Below, in pieces: positions 8,418-23,231 of a stretch of DNA of 28,918 nt (positions are counted from its first letter, which is position 1; every line of letters begins with the position of its first letter). The stretch covers positions 1 through 28,918 of the IMG/VR virus record IMGVR_UViG_3300022825_000015, one strand, 5' to 3'. The notes under the pieces are model-generated. The model made no database searches. It saw only the letters and a program-made list of their open reading frames with translations, and was not told the origin of the DNA. Origin of the DNA: a virus. The translations under genes were made by a program, and so were the position numbers.

Positions 8418-8453
8418 TTGACATTTGCCGCCGTATCCGTTTTATGGATACAC
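8418..8453 (+). promoter_or_regulatory. 21-bp GTATCC motif (perfect palindrome, core inverted) with upstream TTGACA
   Basis: GTATCC-N7-GGATAC at 8433-8451 plus AC. Its 19-bp core is the exact reverse complement of the core at 2783-2801, while the downstream bases ACACAATGGCA are the same. TTGACA at 8418 is 37 bases before ATG 8455, the same distance as at 2768. The -10 region is weak (TTTATG at 17 bases). Confidence 0.55.
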
Positions 8454-8454
8454 A

Positions 8455-10368
8455 ATGGCAATCGACCTTTACATAAACACCGAAGCCCGCAGCCTCGAAA
8501 CTGCAATCGTGACAGGCACCAAGCGGCCAACTGAGTCCGCCCGAATCCGCGAGTTCGTGCAGGGTGCCGATCAGGACTACATCTTGCACCTGATCAATAC
8601 CGACGGTAGCTACGACAGCCGCAGCGGTGACGCAGCCGTAGCAATGCGCGTAGGCGTGTCTGTGCGGGGCGGCACCGCCAAGACTGGCAAGTTCACCCTG
8701 ACCGCTGGCGCAATCACCTCAGAGGCTATCAGCTTCGGCGCGTCGGCCTCTGCACTTGAGGCGGCGCTCAACCGCATGAACTCCGGCGCAGGGCCATACG
8801 GCGACAAGGTGAAGGCGCAGAAACTCGGTGACGGCATGTGGCTCATTATCTTTGACACCGCTGGCGCTCAAGATGCGCTGGCCGCCGAAAGCCTAAACCT
8901 ATTCCCTGAGTCTGGCGTCATCCCAAACCTCTACGTGACCGGCACATCAACCATACGTTGCCAGCAGATCATCCGCGTAGCCCGTCAGCCCGCAATCTAC
9001 AGCGAGACATGGACAGCAGCGGGCACCACGTTCACGGGCACGCTCGACGCATCAACCGCCCGCGTGGCGCAACTGCTCAACGACGACCGCAGCGCTCAAG
9101 TCGTGTTCGAGGTCAAGGCCGACGACACCATCCTTTGCTCCGTCCCTTGCCGCATCCTGCCCGCCGTAGCCGACACTAGCTCATTCACCGGCGCAAGCCT
9201 TCCGACCTCTGCAACCGAGGCTTACGTGACCGCAGCCATTGCAGGTAGCCGCTCGCTGATCGGCAATACGATATTCGTGGCTAAGAATGGCACCGACACC
9301 CGCACCGGCCTCGACCCTCACGACATCCGCAAACCGTTTCTGACCGTCAACGCAGCGCAGGCAGTGGCGGTGAGCGGCGACACTATCATGGTGTTTGCTG
9401 GCGACTACAGCGCAGAGACCGCGCTCGGTGGCGTGGACGGCGTCTACTATCAAGGTCTGGACGGCGCAACGTTGCCAGCGTTTAACGTGGTGACTGGGAT
9501 TACTATTTACGGCAGCGGATTGGCGCAGTCGCTCACTTGCAATCATGCCAGCGCGGTGATGAATTTCGCGCGGATGGATGCGGTTACTTCTATTACTTGC
9601 TCTAGCGGCGAGCAAACCGCTGGCAACGCGGGCACTTATATTGAGTGCAACGGCGGAATCCAGGCAGCAGGTAATGCTGGCACTTCTATTTATTGCTCTA
9701 GCGGCGAGCAAACCGCTGGCAACGCGGGCACTTATATTGAGTGCTACAACGGCGAGCAAACCGCAGGTAACGCTGGCGATAATATTGTTTGCTACAACGG
9801 CGTGCAGACAGCAGGTAACGCTGGCGATAATATTGTTTGCTACAACGGCGTGCAGACAGCAGGCAACGCAGGCACTTCTATTTCTTGCTCCGGCGGAGTG
9901 CAAAACGCAGGCAACGCAGGCACTTTTATTGCTTGCAGCGCCGGCGTGCAAACAATCACTCGCGCAAACTTCACCTCAACAGACCGCCCCGTCAGATTGT
10001 CAGGATCAGGCAGCCTCACCATCACGGGCCGCATCGAGTCCACCCAGTCAAACGGTGTGATCGTGGACATCTCAAATAACTGGAGCGGCACACTCAACGC
10101 CGTCGACTGCGACCTCACAGCCACAACCGTCGGTGGCGACGGCGCAACCATCGGCATCAATTACGGCACTGGCGTCACGGGCAATGTGCAGCTCAAGAAC
10201 TGCACCATCATCACGGCCAAGAACGGCAGCGGCACCGCCAAGAGCATCGACGCGCCATCAGCACAGACCGTCTACGTGCAGGGCTCGCTCAACCAAACAC
10301 ACGCGGTTGATTCCGACATCACGCTGGCAGGCGGCGCTGCGATCACCAACACCGCATTCACCGTGTAG
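8455..10368 (+). CDS. Tail fibre/spike with beta-helix-like 16-residue cysteine repeats
   Basis: This 637-residue protein starts at ATG 8455; a TTG at 8425 is also in frame but would place the 21-bp motif inside the gene. Residues 1-240 are a beta-rich N-terminal region (MAIDLYINTEARSLETAIVTGTK...), probably the tail-attachment part. Around residue 275, IFVAKNGTDTRTGLDPHDIRKPFLTVNAAQA is the 'V...G.D...G.. ..pf.ti..A' opening of pectate-lyase-like right-handed beta-helix proteins. Residues 378-505 hold eight 16-residue repeats, each with a Cys at position 5 and most ending QTAGNAG. The end (residues 506-637) looks like further beta-helix rungs. It is probably a receptor-binding or depolymerising fibre; no catalytic residues can be assigned. 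Confidence 0.75.
   Translation: MAIDLYINTEARSLETAIVTGTKRPTESARIREFVQGADQDYILHLINTDGSYDSRSGDAAVAMRVGVSVRGGTAKTGKFTLTAGAITSEAISFGASASALEAALNRMNSGAGPYGDKVKAQKLGDGMWLIIFDTAGAQDALAAESLNLFPESGVIPNLYVTGTSTIRCQQIIRVARQPAIYSETWTAAGTTFTGTLDASTARVAQLLNDDRSAQVVFEVKADDTILCSVPCRILPAVADTSSFTGASLPTSATEAYVTAAIAGSRSLIGNTIFVAKNGTDTRTGLDPHDIRKPFLTVNAAQAVAVSGDTIMVFAGDYSAETALGGVDGVYYQGLDGATLPAFNVVTGITIYGSGLAQSLTCNHASAVMNFARMDAVTSITCSSGEQTAGNAGTYIECNGGIQAAGNAGTSIYCSSGEQTAGNAGTYIECYNGEQTAGNAGDNIVCYNGVQTAGNAGDNIVCYNGVQTAGNAGTSISCSGGVQNAGNAGTFIACSAGVQTITRANFTSTDRPVRLSGSGSLTITGRIESTQSNGVIVDISNNWSGTLNAVDCDLTATTVGGDGATIGINYGTGVTGNVQLKNCTIITAKNGSGTAKSIDAPSAQTVYVQGSLNQTHAVDSDITLAGGAAITNTAFTV
9586..9969 (+). repeat. Eight tandem 48-bp repeats coding 16-residue rungs
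   Basis: Eight in-frame units of exactly 48 bp begin at 9586. The pattern is (T/D)xI.C..G.QTAGNAG. Units 1 and 3 differ by two or three bases, and units 5 and 6 by two, so units have been copied recently, while unit 8 has diverged. Cys recurs every 16 residues. Confidence 0.95.
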
Positions 10369-12677: not shown

Positions 12678-12904
12678 CCGACCGCATCATCACCGCCGTA
12701 CTTGCTGTATCCGTAATCCTGATACACTGCGCAGGGTGTGCGTCGCGACCACTTCCGACGCCGATGGCAACGGTTGATATTTACGTGACCGACGATGGAT
12801 TCTTCGTGATCACCGAGCGCGACTCTGACGAGTCTATCGCCTACAGATTTAACGTCACAGATATCCACCCAATCGAACCGCCAACACCAATCCCAACGCC
12901 ATGA
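12674..12904 (+). CDS. Small proline-rich lipoprotein; outer-membrane spanin candidate
   Basis: This 76-residue protein has a signal peptide (MTDRIITAVLAVSVILIHCAGC) whose lipobox ends at Cys22. The remaining 54 residues contain eleven Pro, ending PIEPPTPIPTP, as in Rz1-type outer-membrane spanins. It overlaps the preceding membrane protein by ATGA and the next lipoprotein by ATGA. The leader also carries a perfect form of the 21-bp GTATCC motif at the DNA level. Confidence 0.6.
   Translation: MTDRIITAVLAVSVILIHCAGCASRPLPTPMATVDIYVTDDGFFVITERDSDESIAYRFNVTDIHPIEPPTPIPTP
12707..12727 (+). promoter_or_regulatory. 21-bp GTATCC motif inside the lipoprotein leader
   Basis: GTATCC-GTAATCC-TGATAC-AC in the signal-peptide coding region, in frame as VSVILI. 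It matches 10398-10418 at 19 of 21 positions. The match in a coding region can come from a shared peptide with 12934, so its function as a site is uncertain. Confidence 0.35.
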
Positions 12905-17923: not shown

Positions 17924-17962
17924 CGGCGTTGTGCAGGTCGTCAAGTCTTTTTTGTGCATATT
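17924..17962 (-). promoter_or_regulatory. TGCACA/TTGAC/ACCTGCAC promoter-operator, copy 1
   Basis: On the minus strand: ATATGCACAA, AAAAGAC, TTGACG (17944-17939), ACCTGCACAACGC. It lies about 80 bases before the methyltransferase start and shares this order with three other sites (19501, 20919, 21440). No good -10 element is seen at 17 bases, so the leader may start further down. Confidence 0.55.
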
Positions 17963-18610: not shown

Positions 18611-19020
18611 AGTTCGTGTGTGTGTGTGTGAAAGTGTCCCCGCTTGCCTTATTGAGTTGCTGCACGGCGGGAGCGCGCACATCGCCGAAAGGCTCGGCCT
18701 TACCCTTAACATGCTTCGGGCTTCGATTCACTTTATCTTACGACCGTCTGGTCATGGCATGGCAAAGTGTCCACCAGCCGCGATCCCCCACACTTCCTCG
18801 CGGTGTACTGCATATAGGATTATCAGACCCTTCGGGGGGCTGCTGGTGGGAGCAAACGCAGACGGCGCGGTGTGCGCAGAGGGAAACAAAAACCTCGTCT
18901 GTGAATGCCCTGAAATTGATAAAGAACGTGCCGTCTTTCCGGCTGCCATGCCCCATCTACGGTTGAGGTTTTGCGGCGTCAAGTCCAGCCCTTGACTCGG
19001 GCTCGTGATGGTGTGAGCCG
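18611..19020 (-). other. 410-bp region without a clear gene; structured RNA or weak small ORF
   Basis: Several frames are open on both strands but none has a convincing protein. A minus frame from ATG 18949 to 18752 (65 aa; MAAGKTARSLSISGH..., ends VHREEVWGIAAGGHFAMP) starts four bases after a possible promoter (TTGACG 18982-18977, 17 bases, TAGATG). From memory it resembles the odd small proteins annotated as Ash- or Icd-like near P4-type immunity regions. The DNA also has long inverted repeats: CCACCAGC 18771-18778 with GCTGGTGG 18842-18849, CCCCC 18785 with GGGGG 18834. A compact three-way junction at 18859-18901 has arms CAGAC/GTCTG, GCGC/GCGC, GAGG/CCTC. I read it as structured RNA with low confidence. 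Confidence 0.35.
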
Positions 19021-19567: not shown

Positions 19568-19810
19568 CTACTCAGCCGCGATTCCGCGCATCCGCAGAAT
19601 CGCCGTCATTGCACCAGCCCGCTGACCAGCCAGCCTCGCTGCCAGCTTCCGCGCAGCCTTGACCTCGCTCGCCCGCTGCGCCTGGTAGGCTTCGAGGTCT
19701 CGGTCTATGTAGCCATCGATGACCGGCGGTAGTCCACGGTCGGCTCGCTGCTGCTTTCGCTCGGCGGCCTTCGTCGCCTTTTCCCTGTCGGTCATTCGCG
19801 GTCGTCCCAT
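19568..19810 (-). CDS. Small basic protein at the head of the minus arm
   Basis: This 80-residue protein begins MGRPRMTDREKATKAAERKQQ and is Arg/Lys/Ala-rich with two helices (residues 4-25 and 40-72). The GRPR start is similar to an AT-hook, and the protein could bind DNA or RNA. It lies nearest the hub, with a possible TTGACG box 37 bases upstream of the ATG. The end of the frame is TAG at 19568. Function unknown; a small regulator is one option. Confidence 0.6.
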   Translation of the reverse strand: MGRPRMTDREKATKAAERKQQRADRGLPPVIDGYIDRDLEAYQAQRASEVKAARKLAARLAGQRAGAMTAILRMRGIAAE

Positions 19811-19820
19811 AGGAGGGCAC

Positions 19821-19847
19821 TTTCTAGCGTGGTATGCGGCGCGTCAA
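19821..19847 (-). promoter_or_regulatory. Possible promoter of the 19810 gene
   Basis: TTGACG (19847-19842) and TAGAAA (19826-19821) with a short 15-base spacer; the -35 box is 37 bases before ATG 19810, as at 2768 and 8418. Weak by itself. Confidence 0.35.
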
Positions 19848-19880
19848 GGCATTGTAATAAAAAATATGGCAATAGGGCTT

Positions 19881-19901
19881 GTATTCACAATCTGAATACG
19901 C
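19881..19901. promoter_or_regulatory. Palindromic site GTATTC-N7-GAATAC
   Basis: The 6-7-6 palindrome layout is the same as that of the GTATCC motif, with one base changed in each half. It stands about 70 bases upstream of the 19810 start and 48 bases upstream of the first hub terminator. It could be an operator for divergent transcription. Confidence 0.45.
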
Positions 19902-19948
19902 ACAGTGACAGATGCAAAGACGGTTTCGTAGTCGTTCTTCGTGTGTTA

Positions 19949-19985
19949 AGCGTCCCCACTAACTGAATAGGTGGGGGCGCTTTTT
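19949..19985 (+). terminator. Strong rho-independent terminator in the hub
   Basis: AGCGTCCCCAC / GTGGGGGCGCT is an 11-bp stem (one wobble), loop of 11 bases, followed by TTTTTATTTTT. No gene precedes it on this strand, so it would end an unseen short RNA starting after about 19860. Confidence 0.85.
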
Positions 19986-19991
19986 ATTTTT

Positions 19992-20047
19992 CCCCGGGGA
20001 CTTCTTCCTTAACCCTTTGCAGTTAATAGGAGCCGGGGTTCTTTTTT
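19992..20047 (+). terminator. Second hub terminator-type hairpin
   Basis: CCCCGG (19992) pairs with CCGGGG (20033). Inside, TCC and TTAAC pair with GTTAA and GGA with a 2-3 base bulge. TTCTTTTTT follows. It ends 12 bases before the -35 box at 20059. Confidence 0.65.
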
Positions 20048-20058
20048 CGTATAAGGTA

Positions 20059-20088
20059 TTGACACGCGGGCGATTCGCTGCATTTGTA
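20059..20088 (+). promoter_or_regulatory. Promoter of the candidate small RNA
   Basis: TTGACA at 20059-20064; TTTGTA at 20083 (18 bases) or ATTTGT at 20082 (17 bases). The -35 is perfect and the -10 weak. It stands directly after a terminator and about 100 bases before the next, as expected for an independent small RNA gene. Confidence 0.45.
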
Positions 20089-20093
20089 GGAGT

Positions 20094-20189
20094 ATCGAAA
20101 CGACCTCGTAGCCTGCCAGCACGAAATATTTCCCGTCCAATGTGACACTTTAAAACCGAGATTTTGCTGGCAGGCGTCTCGGTTTTTTT
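20094..20189 (+). ncRNA. Candidate small regulatory RNA with pseudoknot or switch topology
   Basis: No ORF with a start lies here, but the stretch has a promoter-like sequence upstream and a terminator downstream. GCCTGCCAGCA (20111-20121) is fully complementary to TGCTGGCAGGC (20165-20175). The latter is the loop of the terminator hairpin AACCGAGA (20154) / TCTCGGTT (20177). The order A-B-A'-B' allows an 11-bp helix that either makes a pseudoknot or competes with terminator folding. This could be an antisense or immunity RNA, or the leader attenuator of what follows. Size about 95 nt. Unknown class. Confidence 0.45.
20154..20189 (+). terminator. Third hub terminator (regulated candidate)
   Basis: An 8-bp stem AACCGAGA / TCTCGGTT with 15-base loop, followed by a run of seven T (20183-20189). 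The loop contains the complementary segment described under the small RNA. Confidence 0.8.
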
Positions 20190-20199
20190 GGTCTCAGTT

Positions 20200-20392
20200 T
20201 ATAGGAGCAAGCGATGAGATCCATTAGCCCGAGTCCTACGGTGCAGTCGTCAACTCATAACTGGGGACTGCTTAATACGGATTCGATGACCGCTTCAGGA
20301 ATGTCATCGCGTGCACTACCCTGCTATCATGCCTACTCATCGGGAACTGAGGCCAGCATCGGGGGTAGAGCGAAAAGCTTGGCCTCTTTTTT
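20200..20392 (+). ncRNA. Second candidate structured RNA (or leader ORF) in the hub
   Basis: Three successive hairpins are seen: GCAGTC/GACTGC (20243-20248 / 20266-20271), CGATGAC/GTCATCG (20285-20291 / 20304-20310), and a terminator (20349-20392). A frame of 81 codons starts at ATG 20214 with a good AGGAG six bases before it. But it runs through the terminator, has Ser-rich unstructured content and no recognisable family. Structured RNA is therefore preferred, with a leader peptide as the alternative. Confidence 0.35.
20349..20392 (+). terminator. Fourth hub terminator
   Basis: GAGGCCA (20349) / TGGCCTC (20380), 24-base loop, followed by TTTTTT. Confidence 0.75.
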
Positions 20393-20506
20393 AAGGACAG
20401 CACGATTCTCCCATAATTCAAGGTTTAGGCTTTGGGGTATGGGGGAACCGTGCCCGTAGCCCGGCGCAGCATTTTTAATAAGGTTTGCCACGTAGCATCC
20501 CGCCAC

Positions 20507-20527
20507 GTATCCAGAAACCAACTACAC
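20507..20527 (+). promoter_or_regulatory. 21-bp GTATCC motif before gene 20543
   Basis: GTATCC-AGAAACC-AACTAC-AC, 15 bases before ATG 20543. No TTGAC box at the expected place; a TTGCCA lies at 20486. Confidence 0.55.
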
Positions 20528-20542
20528 TACCACGAAACGACC

Positions 20543-20917
20543 ATGAACGACCCCGACACGATCACACTAGGATTCCCTGACATCGAAATGCTGAAGACTT
20601 CGAAAGGCGGCTACAAGCGCAAGACGCTCGAATACATAGGCGTAAGCTGGCCACCGAAAAAAGGCTGGCCTGCCCGCATCGTCGGAAACGTGATTAAACT
20701 GTCCGCATACGAGGCCGCCCTACATGATACTGAAATTCCGTCAGGGAAGAAAAACCAGCAACCCGAGCCGAGGCACCCCGAAGCCCCGCGCTCACGTGGG
20801 GAAATGCTCACAGTCATTCAGCGGTGCCAAGCCGGGGACATTGATGCCCTCGGGATGCTGCGGATATTTGAGCACGAGACTGACAAAGCGATTTCGGCTG
20901 TTTTGGCTGACTCGTAA
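20543..20917 (+). CDS. Hypothetical protein, first gene of the plus early arm
   Basis: This 124-residue protein starts at ATG 20543 in the recurring 'acgaccATG' context (the open frame extends upstream without support). Residues 5-52 (DTITLGFPDIEMLKTSKGGY, KRKTLEYIGVSWPPKKGWPAR, IVGNVIKL) are compact and basic. A Pro/Arg-rich linker follows (QQPEPRHPEAPRSRG) and then a C-terminal helical part (MLTVIQRCQAGDIDALGMLRIF). It may be a DNA-binding protein with a small helical dimerisation domain; no family recognised. Confidence 0.6.
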   Translation: MNDPDTITLGFPDIEMLKTSKGGYKRKTLEYIGVSWPPKKGWPARIVGNVIKLSAYEAALHDTEIPSGKKNQQPEPRHPEAPRSRGEMLTVIQRCQAGDIDALGMLRIFEHETDKAISAVLADS

Positions 20918-20918
20918 A

Positions 20919-20948
20919 ATATGCACACAAGTATTGACAGACCTGCAC
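20919..20948 (+). promoter_or_regulatory. TGCACACAA/TTGACA/ACCTGCAC promoter-operator, copy 3
   Basis: ATATGCACACAA, GTA, TTGACA (20934-20939), GACCTGCACGA. Located in the gap before ATG 20989, 50 bases upstream. Confidence 0.6.
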
Positions 20949-21439: not shown

Positions 21440-21484
21440 ATGTGCACACAAAGACTTGACGACCTGCACAATGCGCCCATGTTG
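21440..21484 (+). promoter_or_regulatory. TGCACACAA/TTGACG/ACCTGCAC promoter-operator, copy 4; predicts leaderless mRNA
   Basis: ATGTGCACACAA, AGAC, TTGACG (21456-21461), 17 bases, ATGTTG (21479-21484), GGGGA, ATG 21490. The 34-base -35-to-ATG distance is the same as at 19495 on the other strand. Confidence 0.65.
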
Positions 21485-23182: not shown

Positions 23183-23202
23183 CTGAGCATAGACATCCCG
23201 AC

Positions 23203-23223
23203 CGTATCCACAAATCAACTACA
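23203..23223 (+). promoter_or_regulatory. 21-bp GTATCC motif before gene 23232
   Basis: GTATCC-ACAAATC-AACTAC-AC, eight bases before ATG 23232. Nearly identical to the minus-strand copy at 15075. Confidence 0.6.
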
Positions 23224-23231
23224 CTACGAGC

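Follow-up and report, generated by a model that had tools for sequence, protein, structure and literature searches.

Genomic context of the hub

The window analyzed here is a single IMG/VR virus record of 28,918 bases from an uncultured phage. In its left part, the recognized families include a phage capsid protein and a tape measure protein. Further right, two oppositely transcribed gene blocks are separated by ∼700 bases, referred to as the hub herein (Table 1). The leftward block encodes an SNF2-type helicase, a DNA methylase, and a DUF4406 protein, and the rightward block encodes an HNH endonuclease-like protein, an SSB (DUF3127), the Sak annealing protein, and an endonuclease VII-like protein. 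With the terminase of a relative as the query, the best isolate match was Verrucomicrobia phage P8625 at just 25% identity, and a terminase search of bacterial genomes for the host gave no match. Relatives were found via the flanking proteins and DNA patterns: one record is 100% identical to the window, others are ∼92% identical, and one is 88% identical. Their alignment comprises three lineages, and the relatives L004 and L012 have one shared type of the second predicted RNA (RNA2).

Table 1. Features of the hub and its borders, numbered along the window
Feature	Position	Strand	Remarks
Leftward gene bordering the hub	19568..19810	-	80 aa, no known family
GTATTC-N7-GAATAC dyad in front of RNA1	19881..19899	.	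One of 11 dyads in the window
All dyad sites in the window	891, 2783, 3303, 3525, 4064, 8433, 10398, 12707, 12934, 16123, 19881
RNA1, predicted small RNA of ∼90 nt ending in T1	19895..19985	+	5′ end inferred; body nearly invariant; fold z −3.9
Terminator T1, 13-bp stem then T-rich tract	19948..19982	+	Stem kept in all lineages
Extra terminator-type hairpin	19998..20041	+	In a lineage-specific insertion of ∼55 bp; ΔG −10.3
Probable RNA2 promoter, TTGACA then conserved GCTGCATTTGTAGG block	20059..20087	+	Promoter status inferred
RNA2, predicted, ∼95-100 nt, arms a-b-a′-b′ ending in T2	20092..20190	+	Attenuator-like
Arm a (GCCTGCCAGCA)	20111..20121	+
Arm b, 5′ half of terminator T2	20152..20161	+
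Arm a′ (TGCTGGCAGGC), within the T2 loop	20165..20175	+	Pairs with a
Arm b′, 3′ half of T2	20177..20186	+	T-tract to 20189
RNA3, predicted rod-like RNA of ∼200 nt, reached by T2 read-through	20190..20392	+	From substitution counts and fold
ORF spanning T3	20214..20459	+	Open; non-coding codon use
Terminator T3	20349..20386	+	5′ arm alternatively closes the RNA3 rod
Long hairpin before the rightward operon	20400..20453	+	23 bp, no T-tract
GTATCC element just upstream of the first rightward gene	20507..20530	+	Repeated at 23204
First rightward gene, other border of the hub	20543..20917	+	124 aa, no known family

The hub carries terminator-type hairpins on one strand and no genes

We scanned positions 19811-20542 for hairpins of ΔG ≤ −10 followed by at least 5 T in 8 bases. 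The plus strand holds exactly four such hairpins and the minus strand none, while dinucleotide shuffles of the hub (n = 100) averaged 0.25, with 2 as the highest count and none at 4 or more. Beside the extra hairpin, their ΔG values are −22.7 for T1, −15.5 for T2 (20152-20186), and −15.9 for T3. A simple consensus scanner overlooks all four because their loops exceed 8 nt. The 662-base stretch from 19881 to 20542 also folds better than its own shuffles, with a z of −4.6 from only 20 shuffles.

An earlier, sequence-only reading of this DNA had described a gene-free hub with four terminators and three TAGGAG segments, and every element that it listed was found within 1-2 bases of where it had been placed, or exactly there. 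The count of four terminators is borne out on the plus strand, but only T1, T2, and T3 are conserved across the relatives in the alignment. The fourth lies in an insertion (about 19986-20041) that is carried by the window and its 100% copy and is absent from the relatives, and its hairpin is no better than shuffles (z −0.15). Similarly, all three TAGGAG segments are present, but just the one at 20202 is conserved; the one at 20027 falls in the insertion and the one at 20087 is TAGGCG in relatives. We discarded the triplet as a repeated signal, since with one copy of three conserved the series is mostly coincidence. That the hub is free of genes holds: the ORF that spans T3 has a coding log-odds of −0.12 versus about 0.16 for typical accepted genes, and it is frameshifted by a 7-nt insertion in L004. 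The Shine-Dalgarno-like TAGGAG at 20202 and a start-like codon (ATG, but GTG in L012) are conserved before this ORF, which we considered as a leader peptide and discarded on codon use and the frameshift.

No Rfam family (release 15) reached its gathering score anywhere in the window, and the hub gave sub-threshold matches only, also at a relaxed E-value; the best of these likenesses was to terminator-bearing sRNAs such as BTnc049 (20.5 bits versus the 81.9 needed). Among isolate phages, plasmids, bacterial genomes, and IMG/VR, no homologue of the hub outside its own group was found by DNA similarity or pattern. Distant phages that share the helicase/methyltransferase pair (L094-L115 and Synechococcus phage S-H1) have neither a hub nor an interleaved terminator in the loci examined. 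Within the hub, we found no direct repeats, one inverted pair, and no minus-strand promoter-like site by the sigma-70 rule, which may not be the rule of the host. With somewhat better than even odds, the hub serves as a control region that is transcribed rightward into non-coding RNA.

RNA1 and the upstream dyad

Across the three lineages, the body of the putative RNA1 is nearly invariant except for a 1-nt indel. The T1 loop is altered in relatives, and L012 lacks one T-G pair of the stem, with both partners deleted together, which leaves the pairing intact. A short ORF within RNA1 (MQRRFRSR...) diverges between lineages by frameshift and is thus probably non-coding. The T1 5′ arm of RNA1 (19937-19962) is complementary to the apical part of RNA3 (20265-20285) over 16 pairs with one bulge; this complementarity exceeds most shuffles (z about −2) but is not decisive, and its conservation is not clear, so we keep it as a lead rather than a claim.

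The dyad in front of RNA1 keeps its dyad form in L004, as GTATTC-N7-GGATAC, and is degenerate in L012. Dyads of the form GTATCC-N7-GGATAC, with up to 2 mismatches, occur 11 times in the window versus 0.6 expected. Several stand just upstream of start codons, those at 12707 and 12934 lie in coding sequence, and dyads are present in the relatives too. The dyad could be an operator or promoter element at which some phage regulator acts.

The predicted RNA2 ends in an interleaved terminator with compensatory changes

The TTGACA at 20059 and the block ∼17 bases downstream are unchanged in relatives while the intervening bases vary. Conserved ends with a variable spacer are what a promoter would be expected to show, and this element is probably the RNA2 promoter; its second hexamer is weak by the sigma-70 rule, which may not apply to the host. 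Downstream, four arms in the order a-b-a′-b′ form two interleaved helices. In the window, a:a′ has 11 perfect base pairs, and b:b′, the stem of T2, has 10 perfect base pairs and runs into the T-tract. Between RNA2 of the window and of L004 we counted 24 substitutions in 98 bases, compared with 0 in 200 for RNA3. Relatives carry different bases at ∼45% of the arm positions of a:a′ and at ∼40% of those of b:b′, and both helices are nevertheless perfect there, at unchanged lengths. Changes on both sides account for 5 of 11 pairs in a:a′ and 4 of 10 in b:b′, with no one-sided change and no broken pair, in a comparison of two sequence types. Relatives have an interrupted U-tract at T2 (GGTTCTTTTGG).

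Covariation in the stems, on which the sequence-only reading had in part staked its proposal, is therefore present, from essentially two sequence types. As judged from the alignment, the two-sided arm changes reflect selection on pairing, through independent events that may be few. Because only two distinct RNA2 types are known, the compensatory changes may stem from few events or from one replacement by recombination. A descriptor of the a-b-a′-b′ arrangement matched only the RNA2 element in 2.99 Mb (the window and related viral loci, both strands counted) and matched 0 of 60 shuffles. This interleaved, covarying terminator, as predicted from sequence, is the new point of the analysis.

We then computed alternative folds for both RNA2 types. 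In stepwise folding of the growing chain, a:a′ (about −24 kcal/mol) is already formed when b′ is still incomplete. The minimum of the full-length RNA is a rod that includes part of b′, and it lies 6.9 kcal/mol below the forced terminator in the window and 3.6 kcal/mol below it in the relative, energies in which pseudoknots are ignored. The partner of arm a is the T2 loop (a′), and the bases recruited by the rod are those of b′, not b. Once arm a is blocked, T2 becomes the minimum-energy fold. Since stepwise folding forms a:a′ ahead of b′, the modeled T2 resembles an attenuator, with read-through as the default and termination on capture of arm a.

An unlikely, though by no means negligible, alternative is that RNA2 is a constitutive small RNA in which a:a′ and b:b′ coexist in an H-type pseudoknot, with the terminator as its cap, and which acts on other RNAs or on a protein with no switch and little read-through. 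The arms a/a′ and b/b′ have no bases in common, so both helices can be drawn at once, and two-sided changes in both would suit a structure in which both form. The junctions are also compatible with it, with a single base between a′ and b′ and an L2 of 3 nt (window) or 5 nt (relatives). However, an 11-bp helix would be strained within a hairpin loop of 15-17 nt, and the predicted rod takes up bases of b′ as well, unlike a coexisting pseudoknot.

RNA3 and the approach to the rightward operon

From 20201 onward, we observed 0 substitutions in 200 bases relative to L004 and 1 in 100 relative to L012, whereas neighboring stretches have 4-24 per 100. By our own arithmetic, the chance of 200 unchanged bases at 8% divergence is about 6 × 10−8. 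Local recombination could be an alternative source of this invariance. The fold of RNA3 is unremarkable (z −1.7). Positions 20190-20199 can pair with 20345-20354, which overlap the 5′ arm of T3, and in the model this pairing is a second potential competition with a terminator. Beyond T3, the 7-nt insertion of L004 falls in the upper stem and loop of the long hairpin, which is still paired. A 34-base near repeat (89%) at 20495-20530 and 23194-23227 places GTATCC and CTACACTAC upstream of two rightward genes.

It is quite improbable that the hub does no more than insulate the divergent operons, with its accumulated terminators blocking stray transcription and no specific small RNAs being made. 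All four hairpins do have the same orientation, and the one at 19998 is an example of how readily an additional terminator can be gained by insertion. This explanation leaves unaccounted for the two-sided change in a:a′, the conserved promoter block, and the 200 invariant bases of RNA3, and with the leftward genes pointing away there would be little to stop at T1. The sequence-only reading proposed two or three short RNAs in a row, each with a terminator of its own, which agrees with the compensated pairing of T1 and T2 and the invariance of RNA3 with T3 over 200 nt; its four terminators become three conserved ones plus a lineage-specific insertion, and the TAGGAG series falls away. That the hub makes two or three small RNAs in tandem is thus supported on sequence evidence.

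Other features of the window

On the minus strand, 18612-19020 is a stretch of ∼400 bases without a coding-like ORF, and 18620-18910 is 98% identical to L004 without gaps, with ∼310 bases inserted alongside in the relative; this is possibly another conserved RNA. A promoter-like ATATGCACACAAG...TTGAC...GACCTGCAC is repeated at 20922, 21443, and 19542 (minus strand), with the copies at 21443 and 19542 closely before ATG codons, and its TTGAC-GACCTGCAC part occurs again near 17950 (minus strand). Lastly, imperfect direct repeats of ∼60-75 bases at 9586-9931 lie within the large ORF 8425-10368, which probably encodes a repetitive tail protein.

A model of regulation by termination

As a whole, the hub is best explained by rightward tandem RNAs with an interleaved-helix attenuator at the end of RNA2, a reading to which we assign a probability of roughly 55%. 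We infer that the hub is transcribed, that its helices are rivals and not parts of a single pseudoknot, and that termination there has a regulatory effect. RNA1 would end at T1, which would also insulate the downstream part, and a second promoter at about 20059 would start RNA2. As RNA polymerase advances, arm a would pair with a′ and with part of b′, so that b:b′ is hindered and transcription reads through into RNA3 and possibly into the rightward operon. If arm a were held elsewhere, b:b′ would form and an RNA2 of ∼95 nt would be released. RNA3 would end at T3, the second terminator that looks conditional.

The search for something that might capture arm a gave no ligand, no leader peptide, and no antisense RNA. 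One speculative capturer is the terminated RNA2 itself, in which a would lie exposed on the free 5′ tail and a′ in the big loop of the hairpin, and which could capture arm a of the next nascent transcript in trans, making RNA2 a self-reinforcing shut-off switch. We regard this version as a long shot. If it were true, the fast-changing self-complementary arms would provide phage-type-specific RNA recognition, and the element would be a protein-free exclusion or copy-control device with interleaved instead of shared arms. If the attenuator reading is right, RNA folding would be the sole means by which this phage group controls the stretch between its divergent gene blocks. The terminator loop would be one strand of a second conserved helix, a layout unmatched in Rfam and unique in 3 Mb of related viral DNA, and the resulting compact switch would illustrate how arm sequences turn over while two competing helices are kept.

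Comparison with known systems

In lactococcal c2-type phages, a gene-free stretch between divergent blocks gives rise to an early, untranslated RNA presumed to be required for replication (PMC7150918), and by its sequence the hub is a positional analogue of that origin transcript. That the hub is likewise a replication origin, with its RNAs as primers or structural parts, seems improbable to us. The position in the genome and the lack of genes are the same as described for c2-type origins (PMC7150918), and no replication initiator gene was recognized in the window, although many genes there are without a family assignment and an initiator may exist among them. Against an origin, the hub has no iterons, GC skew shows no sharp switch there, and the compensatory change in three terminators speaks for a role in RNA 3′-end control. 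The c2-type blocks are moreover early versus late, and that account describes no interleaved terminator arms (PMC7150918).

The sequence-only reading had taken the hub for an early-region hub of a temperate phage, which found no support. Integrase, excisionase, and repressor were all missing among the scanned proteins of the window and of part of a 33.9-kb relative, both records being fragments, and because these lysogeny genes were not found, an immunity reading rests mainly on the position of the hub. Such a reading would have a short hub RNA terminate transcription of a lytic operon and block superinfection, as the CI RNA of phage P4 does in its leader (seqA, CI, seqC). The untranslated leader, tandem terminators, and complementary segments resemble P4 (PMC4825925), and arm sequences that diverge fast with pairing kept behave like specificity elements. 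In P4, a CI RNA is complementary to two further leader segments; the hub arms instead pair within one RNA, with no third copy of the arms in the hub, no seqA/seqC-type duplicate, and RNA1-RNA2 and RNA2-RNA3 complementarity at chance level versus shuffles. We consider P4-like immunity highly improbable.

IsrK of prophage Gifsy-1 is also a short phage RNA whose intrinsic terminator is partly read through, as is predicted for RNA2, and its longer transcript has a start codon in a folded leader (PMC4825925). It differs in that a translated ORF directly follows the terminator, whereas the ORF after RNA2 is neither coding-like nor conserved in frame and no antirepressor gene follows. In pT181-type attenuators, found in the repC leader of staphylococcal plasmids, the anti-terminator is on by default and capture of its 5′ arm yields an intrinsic terminator (PMC4878617). 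The same default and the same response are predicted for RNA2, for which we computed two alternative folds, one with an intrinsic terminator, whose helices both show two-sided changes. In pT181, however, the anti-terminator pairs directly with the 5′ part of the terminator stem, whereas arm a pairs with the T2 loop and would hinder the terminator by interleaving. A fully complementary antisense RNA is also made in pT181; in the hub we found no antisense promoter by the sigma-70 rule, which may not be that of the host, and, by the stricter scan, no minus-strand terminator. Taken together, although it departs from defining features of each, the hub would by analogy work most like a plasmid-type attenuator (PMC4878617) or like the phage RNA IsrK with its read-through (PMC4825925).
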